Assembly: GCF_001189955.1 (NCBI RefSeq)
Contig: NZ_LFLT01000021.1
Span: forward strand, 23,907-87,906
Length of the DNA: 64,000 bases
Reading direction: 5' to 3'
From: Herbaspirillum chlorophenolicum
Lineage (GTDB): Bacteria; Pseudomonadota; Gammaproteobacteria; Burkholderiales; Burkholderiaceae_D
In this document: one piece after another, positions 699 through 9,296 of the stretch
How the letters are laid out: every line of letters begins with the position of its first letter
Position numbering within the stretch: position 1 is the first letter of the stretch
Made by a program: the position numbers and the translations under genes
The notes under the pieces: generated by a model
Seen by the model: the letters and a program-made list of their open reading frames with translations, nothing else
Database searches by the model: none
What the model was told of the DNA's origin: nothing

Positions 699-2288
699 TT
701 ACTCCACCGGTAGAGCCCGGGGAGCATCAAGACGAAAGATGCTGACCAACCCCTGAAGGCCGGAAGCCTGCTCCTGCAGCGAATGCGCGGCGGCAGCGGC
801 TTGCTCCACCAGCGCCGCATTCCGCTGGGTCATATCGTCGATCTGGATGATCGCTTCATTGACCTGCTCGATGCCGCCACTCTGCTCGCGATTGGCATGG
901 GTGATTTCGGTCATTACCTCCGTCACACGTCTGATGCTGGCGACGATATCCTGCATGGTGCTGCCGGCCTGCCCGACCAGCCTGCTGCCGTTCTCGACCT
1001 TGCCGACAGAGTCGCCGATCAGCACCTTGATTTCTTTCGCGGCGGACGCCGAGCGCTGGGCAAGCGTTCTCACCTCGGATGCGACCACCGCAAAACCGCG
1101 CCCCTGCTCACCCGCACGCGCGGCTTCCACCGCCGCATTCAAGGCCAGGATATTGGTCTGGAAGGCGATGCCGTCGATCACGCTGACGATGTCGGCCACC
1201 TTTTGCGAAGAGGCATTGATCGACTGCATGGTGTCCACCACTTGCGACACGATCTCGCCGCCCTGCACCGCCACGCTGGACGCTGCCGATGCCAGCGCGT
1301 TGGCCTGCTGGGCATTTTCGGCGTTGTGCTTGACAGTGGCGTTCAACTGTTCCATCGACGAGGCAGTCTCTTCCAGCGCGCCGGCCTGCTGCTCGGTGCG
1401 CGAAGACAAATCGAGGTTGCCGCGGGCAATCTCGGTTGAAGCGGTTGTGATGGTATCTGCGCCTGTGCGCACCTGCGATACGATCGCCGCCAGCTTGTCG
1501 CGCATGGCTTTCATGGCGGCCATCAGGCTGCCCTGGTCGCCCTCCCGCAAGGCAATCTCCATGGCCAAGTCGCCCTCTGCAATCCGGCTGGCAATACGTG
1601 CAGCGTCATCGGGCTCGCCGCCCAGTTTGCGCAGCAGATGGCGGGTGATCCAGAAAGCCGCCAAACCGGCCGTGACAACACCCATGGCGCTGATGACCAG
1701 CATCAGCAAACGCGCCTCGGCGTAAGCCCTGGCGCTGGTTGCCGCCGCCTCCTGGTTGAGCTTGTCTTCGAGCAGAGCCAATGCCTTGAGTTCGGCTTGC
1801 CATGCCTTCTGCACCGGCAGATATTGCGACTTCAAGAATTCCACCAGCTCATAGGACTCGCTCTGCTGGCGGATATCGATACCTTCCGCGATCACCTTGC
1901 GGGCGTTATCCGCCAGTTTGGCAATCCTGGCGAACGCTGCCTTTTCTTCGGCAGTGGTGCCAGGAAAAGCATCGAACAACTGCTGCAGATCCGCTGCGGC
2001 TTTCTGGTATTGACCGGCTTGTTCGACGATGTAGGCGGTCTCGCGCTCGACGTCTTCGTTTGATGCCGGCAACATCAGGTTGCGCAACGAAATGGAGCGC
2101 TCGGCGACGGTGTCGAGCATGGTCTTGACCAGCGCGCTTTGCGGGTTCTTCACCTCGACCACGGTATTGAAACGCGACTGCACCTGGTGCATGTTGTAGA
2201 TACCGAACGCGGTGACCAGCGCCAGCAGCGCGATGACCCAGGCAAATCCAAGGCCCAGGCGTACGCCGACCTTTGCCCGTGATGGCAT
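699..2288 (-). CDS. Methyl-accepting chemotaxis protein, last gene of the lyase/ABC operon
   Basis: A 529-residue chemoreceptor. It has an N-terminal membrane helix (about residues 8-30), a helical periplasmic domain of about 160 residues of the four-helix-bundle type, a second membrane helix (about 192-213), a HAMP segment and a long cytoplasmic signalling coiled coil. The tip has the invariant NILALNAAVEAARAGEQGRG stretch. An in-frame start 14 codons upstream exists, but the ATG at 2288 follows a strong GGAGGAG ribosome site and is preferred. It lies 75 bases behind the ABC ATPase gene on the same strand and is probably co-transcribed. That suggests it senses the imported substrate or its complex with the binding protein, which is inference. 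No CheR-tethering pentapeptide is visible at the C-terminus. Confidence 0.93.
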   Translation of the reverse strand: MPSRAKVGVRLGLGFAWVIALLALVTAFGIYNMHQVQSRFNTVVEVKNPQSALVKTMLDTVAERSISLRNLMLPASNEDVERETAYIVEQAGQYQKAAADLQQLFDAFPGTTAEEKAAFARIAKLADNARKVIAEGIDIRQQSESYELVEFLKSQYLPVQKAWQAELKALALLEDKLNQEAAATSARAYAEARLLMLVISAMGVVTAGLAAFWITRHLLRKLGGEPDDAARIASRIAEGDLAMEIALREGDQGSLMAAMKAMRDKLAAIVSQVRTGADTITTASTEIARGNLDLSSRTEQQAGALEETASSMEQLNATVKHNAENAQQANALASAASSVAVQGGEIVSQVVDTMQSINASSQKVADIVSVIDGIAFQTNILALNAAVEAARAGEQGRGFAVVASEVRTLAQRSASAAKEIKVLIGDSVGKVENGSRLVGQAGSTMQDIVASIRRVTEVMTEITHANREQSGGIEQVNEAIIQIDDMTQRNAALVEQAAAAAHSLQEQASGLQGLVSIFRLDAPRALPVE

Positions 2289-2363
2289 GGCTGTCTCCTC
2301 CGATGATTGTGCGGAATACGGCAGAACCACCTTATTGCGGATGGTTTCTGGTTTGAAAACTGC

Positions 2364-3116
2364 TTAGAGAACGTGCCCCAGGAATTCCCGGGTACGCGCA
2401 TCCTTCGGCGAATCGAAGAATTCAGCCGGCGCACCGTGCTCGACGATGAGCCCCTTGTCGGTGAAGTAGACCTGATGGGCCACTTCGCGGGCAAAGCGCA
2501 TTTCGTGCGTGACGAGGATACAAGTCATGCCCTCTTCAACCAGCTCGCGGATGGTCGCCAGCACTTCCTTCACCGTTTCCGGATCGAGCGCTGCCGTCAC
2601 TTCGTCGAACAGCATCACGCTGGGGCGCATGGCCAGCGCACGGGCAATCGCCACACGCTGCTGCTGGCCGCCGGAGAGATGGCCGGGATAGGCCTTCTCC
2701 TTGCCGGTCAGGCGGACTTTTTCCAGCAGCTTGTTGGCGCGCTCGCGCACCTCTTCCGCATCCTGCTTGAGCACCTGCGTGGGCGCCAGCATGATGTTTT
2801 CCAGTACCGTCATGTGCGGGAAGAGGTTGTATTGCTGGAACACCATGCAGACATCCTTGCGCAAGGCGATGCGGTCTTCGTTGGTGCGCAGGGCGTGCAC
2901 GGCGTGGCCGGCGGCCTCGATCTTGCCGCCGTCTGCCGCCACCAGGCCGTTGATGCAGCGCAAGAGCGTGGACTTGCCCGAGCCCGACGGGCCGATCAGC
3001 GCCACCGCCTCGCCCTTGTTGACGGTCATCGACACGCCGCGCAGCACCTGGTTGTCGCCGAATGCCTTGGTAACGTCGCTGACCTGGACGATCGGGCCTT
3101 GTAGATTCATGTTCAT
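2364..3116 (-). CDS. Polar amino acid ABC transporter ATP-binding protein
   Basis: A 250-residue ATPase of the GlnQ/HisP family that energises the two permeases encoded just upstream. Walker A (GPSGSGKST) is at residues 42-50, the signature LSGGQQQRV is near 148 and Walker B with FDEVTAALDP follows; an H-loop VTHEM is present. The family accepts the V in place of the usual P after the catalytic Glu. The ATG at 3116 has a good GGAGA site. The gene is 51 bases downstream of the last permease and completes an SBP-permease-permease-ATPase set for a polar, probably acidic, amino-acid-like substrate. Confidence 0.94.
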   Translation of the reverse strand: MNMNLQGPIVQVSDVTKAFGDNQVLRGVSMTVNKGEAVALIGPSGSGKSTLLRCINGLVAADGGKIEAAGHAVHALRTNEDRIALRKDVCMVFQQYNLFPHMTVLENIMLAPTQVLKQDAEEVRERANKLLEKVRLTGKEKAYPGHLSGGQQQRVAIARALAMRPSVMLFDEVTAALDPETVKEVLATIRELVEEGMTCILVTHEMRFAREVAHQVYFTDKGLIVEHGAPAEFFDSPKDARTREFLGHVL

Positions 3117-8320: not shown

Positions 8321-8321
8321 G

Positions 8322-9296
8322 TTATCTCCATGAATGAATTGTTGTCATTGCGGGCAGCGCGGGATCAATCTCCCTCAACTCCCCGGTGACCTGGCTGTCG
8401 AGGATGGCTTGCACCAACCCGAATATTTCTTTTCCCAAAACGCCGTATTCGCCCTGGCCCTGCCTTGTATGCAGGTACAGCGTTCTTTCCTCGTTCAAAT
8501 CCTCGATCACGTCTACTCGCACTGCGGCGGCCGAGCGGGCACCTTGCAGCAGGCACAGCGGAGTGGTCACCGCCCAGCCGAGGCCGCCTGCGACCATCGC
8601 GGTCAGCGTGTCGGCGGTATCGACTTCCAGCCGGTGCGAGGGATTCACATCGATCCTGCGCAACGCACGTTCGGCCTGTTCCCCCAGATGCGACTGCCGG
8701 TTGAAACGGATAATGGGCAGCGCTTTTTCCAGCGTTGCGATGTCGGCCGCAACACGGCACTTCGGCGCGGACGGCGGTGCAATCAGCATGAACCGTTCCG
8801 ACATCAGCGGCTGGCTCTGGATCTCTTCCAAGTCCAGCTGCCGCGATGAAATCACCAGATCCAGCTCACGCCGCGCCAGCGCTTCGCCGAGGTTGGGCGT
8901 CAAGCCGGTGCGCACTGCCAACTGGTTGGTCACTTGCAGCAATTGCTGCACCAGATGCGTACCGCATGTCGCAGCGAACGAATCCACCAGGCCGATGCGC
9001 AGGCTTGGCTTGGCCTCGCGGCTGGCATCGAGCACGGCGCTGCGGATGTTGCACGCATCGTCAAGCAGCGCACGTCCGCGGTTGAACAAGGCAATGCCCG
9101 CAGGCGTGAGCGTCAATGGCCGTACCGTGCGGTTCAACAATGGCGCGCCAACACTGTCTTCCAGCATGCGGATGGTCTGGGATACCGCCGATTGCGAGAT
9201 ACCGAGTTTCTTCGCCGTGCGCGACATGTTGCAGTCCTGTGCCGTCGCCACAAAGATGCGAAGCGCCTGCATATCGATGAGCCGGCTGTCCTGCAT
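8322..9296 (-). CDS. LysR-type regulator, first gene of the lyase/ABC operon
   Basis: A 324-residue LysR-type transcription factor. The N-terminal winged helix covers about residues 8-66 (TAKKLGISQSAVSQTIRMLE) and is followed by the linker helix and an effector domain with RIGLVDSFAATCG. The frame is open 65 codons further upstream, but ATG 9296 puts the helix-turn-helix at its normal position. Its TAA lies one base from the lyase ATG, so it is unusual in being co-directional and probably co-transcribed with its likely targets rather than divergent. A perfect inverted repeat (9368-9384) just upstream fits autoregulation of the whole operon. A close paralogue lies at 10165-11148. Confidence 0.92.
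   Translation of the reverse strand: MQDSRLIDMQALRIFVATAQDCNMSRTAKKLGISQSAVSQTIRMLEDSVGAPLLNRTVRPLTLTPAGIALFNRGRALLDDACNIRSAVLDASREAKPSLRIGLVDSFAATCGTHLVQQLLQVTNQLAVRTGLTPNLGEALARRELDLVISSRQLDLEEIQSQPLMSERFMLIAPPSAPKCRVAADIATLEKALPIIRFNRQSHLGEQAERALRRIDVNPSHRLEVDTADTLTAMVAGGLGWAVTTPLCLLQGARSAAAVRVDVIEDLNEERTLYLHTRQGQGEYGVLGKEIFGLVQAILDSQVTGELREIDPALPAMTTIHSWR

Follow-up and report, generated by a model that had tools for sequence, protein, structure and literature searches.

A gene cluster of Herbaspirillum chlorophenolicum that may import and cleave a secondary-amine derivative of aspartate

We analyzed a 64,000-nucleotide stretch of contig NZ_LFLT01000021.1 from Herbaspirillum chlorophenolicum (the window), in which a run of genes on one strand encodes an ATP-binding cassette (ABC) importer for polar amino acids, a C-N lyase of the aspartase/fumarase superfamily, an MmgE/PrpD protein and a stand-alone tRNA-editing protein. 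Judged by their sequences, both enzymes come from uncharacterised branches of their families. The explanation that we favor, with slightly less than even confidence, is that the operon imports a secondary-amine derivative of aspartate, which is then split so that fumarate and an amino acid are formed. The observed basis of this scheme is the gene content, the order of the genes and the way in which they recur together. The substrate-binding protein (SBP), permeases and ATPase would import an acidic N-substituted aspartate that resembles an alpha-amino acid, and the MmgE/PrpD protein, which is of the W-type described below, would epimerise the import so that every stereoisomer reaches the lyase. 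The lyase would then eliminate the amine by the usual Ser-loop chemistry; besides fumarate, this would yield the free amine, which is probably an amino acid as well. The linked editing protein would remove from tRNA a wrongly attached amino acid that is taken up or set free by the pathway. An earlier interpretation of this DNA (the sequence-only reading) had also proposed uptake, epimerisation and cleavage of an N-substituted aspartate. Our results support it in part: the gene set, the linkage, the lyase residues and the epimerase-like fold agree with it, while descent from iminodisuccinate (IDS) epimerase does not hold.

The lyase shares its fold family with AspA, AspB and R. etli AnsB (41-45% identity), and the Ser-loop and carboxylate residues of AspB (S140, T141, N142, T187, S318, K324 and N326) are all identical in it. 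However, in a tree with 28 rows the clade of the window lyase, comprising 21 rows, splits off on a long branch (1.85; support 100/100). The other seven rows are AspA, AspB, R. etli AnsB, two plasmid aspartases, an aspartase from the same genus and the FumC-like protein of the same genome. The aspartase grouping has a support of 93/53, and the FumC row is a long branch, for which the program warns that the join may be false. The sequence-only reading had expected the lyase to cluster with true aspartases if its idea were wrong; the tree places it beside them in a clade of its own.

The clade differs from the aspartases at a small number of positions. At AspB position 188, AspA, AnsB and the remaining aligned aspartases have Gln, while AspB and the FumC-like row have His; in the window lyase it is Cys192, a residue shared by 119 of 119 close relatives and by each of the four alphaproteobacterial members. 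In addition, His364 stands in place of Val/Ala360 and Ser102-Gly103 in place of Gly98-Ala99. According to a 2024 study, AspB His188 contacts the product amine (PMC11744663). The fact that this amine-contact residue is Cys across the whole clade points to a leaving group other than ammonia, and from these residues the leaving group is probably not ammonia. A useful comparison is the ethylenediaminedisuccinate (EDDS) lyase of Chelativorans BNC1, which we take to be in the same superfamily; it lies in the argininosuccinate-lyase-like branch, whereas the window lyase lies in the aspartase/FumC branch. If Ser280 is the Ser-loop residue of EDDS lyase, as we assume, then 121 residues separate it from Q159. 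The same distance is found between the Cys192-equivalent position and the Ser loop in the ArgH-like protein of the H. chlorophenolicum genome, so Cys192 and Q159 are probably equivalent, a likeness drawn through a published position and not through sequence. In EDDS lyase, Q159C is one of three changes that jointly admit bulky secondary amines (PMC12363623).

The main rival is the ordinary use of acidic amino acids. Here the importer would take up D- or L-aspartate, the lyase would be a divergent aspartase and the MmgE/PrpD protein would be an accessory racemase-like enzyme or unrelated. We consider this rather unlikely but serious. Several results weigh against the explanation that we favor. 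The broad NCBIfam subfamily PRK12273 (aspartate ammonia-lyase) recognises the lyase with 555.3 bits (cut-off 510), and the Ser-loop and carboxylate-binding residues are those of an aspartase. A search of the own genome with the lyase found no other aspartase; the next match was the FumC-like protein, with 39% identity. Asparaginase genes lie near two of the clade lyases, in Cupriavidus metallidurans and on Parasedimentitalea pW43B, as in the R. etli ans operon, and these neighbors point to ordinary aspartate/asparagine use. On the other hand, the lyase scores only 484.6 bits with the AspA equivalog model TIGR00839 (cut-off 681.2), its clade stands apart on a long branch and the amine-contact residue is altered throughout. 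Aspartate as the substrate would also leave the tRNA-editing gene and the sarcosine oxidase neighbors described below unexplained. The argininosuccinate-lyase model TIGR00838 (argH) is not reached either (56.7 bits, cut-off 279.5).

Agrobacterium BY6 reportedly degrades iminodisuccinate with an IDS epimerase and a C-N lyase; we take PDB entry 2HP0 to be this epimerase. The IDS epimerase is the top sequence match of the window MmgE/PrpD protein (E 6e-37) and also its nearest solved structure, and the window protein has the two-domain MmgE/PrpD fold. H99 and Y145 have been suggested as the bases of IDS epimerase, and their counterparts in IRG1 are H102 and Y146 (PMC7347537). Both suggested bases are kept in the window protein as H105 and Y151, and among 68 close relatives the His occurs in 67 and the Tyr in 65. 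This conservation strengthens the case for the epimerase step, and an epimerase-like reaction is plausible. However, R100 and H151, which are conserved between the active sites of IDS epimerase and Bacillus subtilis IRG1 (PMC7347537), are replaced by I103 and W156. These replacements point to another substrate and are a further argument on the opposing side; H202 of IDS epimerase and IRG1 is Leu. The position of W156 holds Trp in 65 of the 68 close relatives and His in 52 of 52 distant ones.

A quick tree with 45 rows unites the 26 W-type rows in one clade (SH-like approximate likelihood ratio test (SH-aLRT) 100), and IDS epimerase and B. subtilis IRG1 group outside this clade (SH-aLRT 91). 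The phylogeny against the characterised IDS epimerase, which the sequence-only reading had suggested as a check, hence went against its identification: as far as sequence comparison can tell, the protein is not an IDS epimerase by descent, even though the fold and the H105/Y151 pair remain in agreement with that function. Strict iminodisuccinate catabolism, in which the MmgE/PrpD protein is the IDS epimerase and the lyase splits one isomer to aspartate and fumarate, would account for the top sequence and fold match, the kept bases and the linkage of both enzyme types with an importer. The separate clade and the exchange of R100, H151 and H202 for Ile, Trp and Leu make it improbable. A plasmid search with IDS epimerase gave nothing above 39% identity among the 15 matches listed, and 0 of 639 records had a match of at least 60%.

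Two other functions of the MmgE/PrpD family were rejected. Cis-aconitate decarboxylase (IRG1/ACOD1) does not fit because the second catalytic His, which is H159 in human IRG1 and H151 in B. subtilis IRG1 (PMC7347537), is replaced by Trp156. A 2-methylcitrate dehydratase of the methylcitrate cycle does not fit because the score with the curated PrpD model NF042438, the sole match, was 45.2 bits with a cut-off of 950. The remark in the sequence-only reading that methylcitrate-cycle genes are missing covers the window only; the genome was not searched for prpB or prpC. The genome holds two more MmgE/PrpD genes. An H-type MmgE/PrpD gene of this genome (L065 4842-6230) lies beside frames that by eye resemble CoA-transferase and acyl-CoA dehydrogenase, and because of these neighbors it is probably not a methylcitrate-cycle gene. 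Elsewhere, agmatinase genes lie near the W-type MmgE/PrpD loci of Azospirillum (L014, L016 and L017).

Curated models and Pfam place the SBP in the polar amino-acid family. In this family, we assume, an Arg holds the alpha-carboxylate and an Asp holds the alpha-amino group of the ligand. Both residues are common to the lyase-linked SBPs, which suggests an alpha-amino-acid-like ligand; the same-genus paralogues are without the Asp. The neighborhood of SBP relatives also contains genes labeled as flavoenzymes. Such a label occurs in the stretch in 11 of 15 annotated loci (the exceptions are L009, L010, L072 and L081), and in one of six control loci with weaker SBP relatives (L084). The Fisher p value is 0.029, and 0.018 when the four loci with a lyase or MmgE/PrpD gene are set aside; without L074, in which soxB lies about 6 kb from the SBP gene, the values are 0.055 and 0.043. 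The labels counted were sarcosine oxidase, N-methyltryptophan oxidase, FAD-dependent or FAD-binding protein and NADH:flavin oxidoreductase, which are record labels and not functions. The cases are 15 of 25 listed rows and the controls 6 of 11 weaker rows, three of the rest being unannotated. This comparison is small, borderline and label-based, with flanks of 6-12 kb in the cases and 6 kb in the controls, which again counts against the favored explanation, and the flavoenzyme neighborhood is suggestive only. In Thalassospira, sarcosine oxidase genes follow directly on the lyase gene, and folD and purU stand at the ends. In Parasedimentitalea, a lyase remnant comes after the genes for sarcosine oxidase, the MmgE/PrpD protein and the importer. 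The simplest factor common to these contexts would be a ligand whose nitrogen is substituted.

The remnant on Parasedimentitalea pW43C (L015 13759-13989) is a lyase-like stretch of about 77 codons after the importer genes, with 40% identity over a gapped alignment of 115; from its sequence it looks like what is left of a lyase gene. A separate observation concerns an importer relative in Variovorax paradoxus (L081), which is accompanied by cysteine dioxygenase, cystathionine beta-lyase and sulfurtransferase genes; this suggests sulfur amino-acid ligands for its branch.

The tRNA-editing gene accompanies the clade lyase in five of five Burkholderiales loci and in none of the four alphaproteobacterial loci read. 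The tRNA_edit domain (PF04073) matches with 79.6 bits, and the nearest solved relative is ProXp-ala (5vxb, E 2.4e-24). The Lys of the KN motif is kept, and before it RCK stands in place of the HTK of ProXp-ala in all five operon copies. The genome of H. chlorophenolicum has four tRNA_edit genes, one of them inside a frame of 580 residues as expected for prolyl-tRNA synthetase. Among 23 plasmid records with a match, copies with at least 57% identity occur in only two, and both adjoin a clade lyase. A close copy with 97% identity (P0241) is named Herbaspirillum chlorophenolicum. An exact contig size in common with a listed lyase was found for 3 of 119 listed editing-protein relatives, a test with little weight, as both lists are truncated. 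On our analysis, the editing gene would most likely be there because an amino acid brought in or released by the pathway is confused by a synthetase with its proper substrate. There is a parallel in CtdA, a stand-alone canavanyl-tRNA deacylase that is induced by canavanine (PMC10018355). Both are stand-alone editing proteins linked to an unusual amino acid, with this link and the editing predicted in our case; the domain is B3/4 in CtdA and tRNA_edit (ProX) here.

The editing gene also bears on a pathway like that of the B. subtilis yxe genes, in which the thioether S-(2-succino)cysteine would be imported and split into fumarate and cysteine, and the editing protein would clear Cys-tRNA(Pro). 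The editing-protein family includes a Cys-tRNA(Pro) deacylase, and the yxe/2SL loci, like the window, combine a polar amino-acid importer, an MmgE/PrpD protein and a fumarate-releasing lyase. We take YxeQ to be their MmgE/PrpD protein, and B. subtilis IRG1, which lies outside the W-type clade, is by its length probably YxeQ. The lyase and the MmgE/PrpD protein of the window come from other branches, and the editing protein is nearest to ProXp-ala and not to YbaK. Furthermore, no acetyltransferase, monooxygenase or deacetylase was found by Pfam among the ten genes scanned here. In the yxe study, loci with the same importer type, the uncharacterised YxeQ and a fumarate-releasing lyase make up 27 of 102, and 2SL is placed in another branch of the superfamily, cd01334 (PMC9706529). 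Together, these results leave the thioether pathway very improbable.

The two enzymes are connected by their occurrence in other genomes. With exact contig size as a stand-in for contig identity, 17 of the 68 closest MmgE/PrpD proteins share a contig with one of 120 listed lyase relatives; 16 of them count, because one contig (2013 bases) is too short for both genes. Jittered sizes gave a mean of 0.36 shared contigs and a maximum of 4 in 2000 trials, and none of the 51 MmgE/PrpD proteins that are more distant has a contig size in common with the listed lyases. The linkage of lyase and MmgE/PrpD protein exceeds chance, and the pair travels together in scattered genomes. The lyase, the MmgE/PrpD protein and the same importer were read directly in the window, on plasmid p1 of C. 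metallidurans BS1 (L009) and in genome G372 (L053). Altogether nine loci contain a clade lyase (the window, L009, L010, L011, L012, L013, L018, L053 and L054), with gene positions in the fetched loci taken from tblastn. The importer is present in six, the MmgE/PrpD gene in three and the editing gene in five. Within the stretches read, the MmgE/PrpD gene is thus absent from six of nine, the importer from three and the editing gene from the four alphaproteobacterial loci, which is the last of the points on the opposing side.

A further rival is a loose scavenging cluster, in which the MmgE/PrpD protein and the lyase act on different substrates and have only the importer in common. Each enzyme is also found without the other, and same-genus genomes contain another W-type MmgE/PrpD gene with an SBP gene and no lyase in the stretch (L055-L060 and contig C150 of G000), with an RpiR regulator in the two that were scanned with Pfam. 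The 16 usable shared contigs and the translational overlap of the SBP, MmgE/PrpD and permease genes speak for a common task, so that we give the loose cluster only a slim chance. An arginase-family gene lies near one of the same-genus paralogues (L058). Ectoine degradation was rejected, since the aspartase on the Massilia plasmid has canonical residues; on this Massilia litorea plasmid (L063) the gene lies beside M14 peptidase, semialdehyde dehydrogenase, aminotransferase and cupin genes, a set that we take to resemble one for ectoine degradation.

Close copies of the enzymes are rare. With a threshold of E 1e-150, the lyase was found in 2 of the 392 genomes searched in the own family and in 2 of the 399 searched in the order, the own genome being counted both times; the family to which G372 belongs gave 1 of 64. 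The MmgE/PrpD protein, with a threshold of E 1e-85, was found in 2 of 399. In the own-family and order searches, at most four first-look candidates were scored per genome. The lyase reaches at least 60% identity on 3 of the 358 plasmid records with a match. When genome contigs were scanned for the MmgE/PrpD protein, one distant locus came up, and phage records gave two distant matches. Because close copies are rare, scattered and in some cases on plasmids, the pattern fits a horizontally spread catabolism. No title or abstract found in the open-access literature searched describes this gene combination.

A more specific version of the favored explanation, which as a whole we regard as unlikely, is a mobile catabolic unit that acts on a natural N-(1,2-dicarboxyethyl) amino acid. 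Its lyase would belong to a new fumarate-releasing class, with an amine pocket lined by Cys, and would free an amino acid that is proline-like or N-methylated (in Thalassospira, sarcosine). A new class of MmgE/PrpD epimerase would supply the lyase with all stereoisomers, and a dedicated tRNA-editing protein would exclude the freed amino acid from proteins. If the favored pathway holds, the operon would be a tractable system for natural secondary-amine aspartates, which are relatives of biodegradable chelators, and a source of new C-N lyases and epimerases for N-substituted aspartates. It would also join canavanine as an example of an unusual amino acid whose handling is coupled to a tRNA-editing protein of its own. 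Because both branches carry altered active sites, the database labels 'aspartate ammonia-lyase' and 'PrpD' are probably wrong in many environmental genomes.

The sequence-only reading had described eight co-directional genes with short or overlapping junctions. All eight are open on the reverse strand between 699 and 9296, and Pfam matched each of the proteins to the family that it had been given. The junctions, computed from the preferred start codons, range from -4 to +75 bp: LysR1-lyase +1, lyase-SBP +44, SBP-MmgE/PrpD -4, MmgE/PrpD-permease 1 -1, permease 1-permease 2 -4, permease 2-ATPase +51 and ATPase-methyl-accepting chemotaxis protein (MCP) +75. The genes for lyase, SBP, permease 1, ATPase and MCP each have a GGAG-type site 5' of the preferred start. 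The same-strand set reaches past 9296, and the tRNA-editing gene and LysR2 upstream are part of the conserved set. An orthologue of LysR2 (75-77% identity) lies immediately before the lyase gene in C. metallidurans and Paraburkholderia PGU19. Scans for promoters and terminators remained at chance level.

Table 1. Genes of the cluster, with positions in the window.
Feature	Position	Strand	Basis
LysR2, second LysR-type regulator	10165..11148	-	Pfam and locus comparison
Stand-alone tRNA-editing deacylase, ProX/ProXp-ala type (PF04073)	9600..10115	-	Pfam, locus comparison
LysR1, LysR-type regulator	8322..9296	-	PF00126/PF03466
Aspartase/fumarase-superfamily C-N lyase, distinct clade, C192/H187/H364 signature	6920..8320	-	PF00206+PF10415; fumarate release predicted
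Periplasmic SBP, polar amino-acid family (SBP_bac_3)	6051..6875	-	PF00497
MmgE/PrpD protein, W-type clade, possibly an epimerase	4666..6054	-	PF03972+PF19305
Amino-acid ABC permease 1	3929..4666	-	PF00528
Amino-acid ABC permease 2, ATG at 3932, 4-bp overlap with permease 1	3168..3932	-	PF00528
Amino-acid ABC ATPase	2364..3116	-	PF00005
MCP, four-helix-bundle sensor	699..2288	-	PF12729+PF00015

The MCP gene starts at ATG 2288, which has a good ribosome-binding site; GTG 2330 gives a longer reading. The chemoreceptor had no match in the compared loci (L005, L009-L015, L018, L053-L060 and L071-L087) and is for this reason seen as a local addition. On plasmid pUSP4 of Aminobacter, a gene for L-histidine N-alpha-methyltransferase (L010 14839-15861) lies two genes from the lyase. 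The cluster is bordered in the window by a frame at 104-652 that by eye resembles a DMT-type transporter, and a DMT gene is annotated beside the cluster in C. metallidurans (L009 14052-15107).

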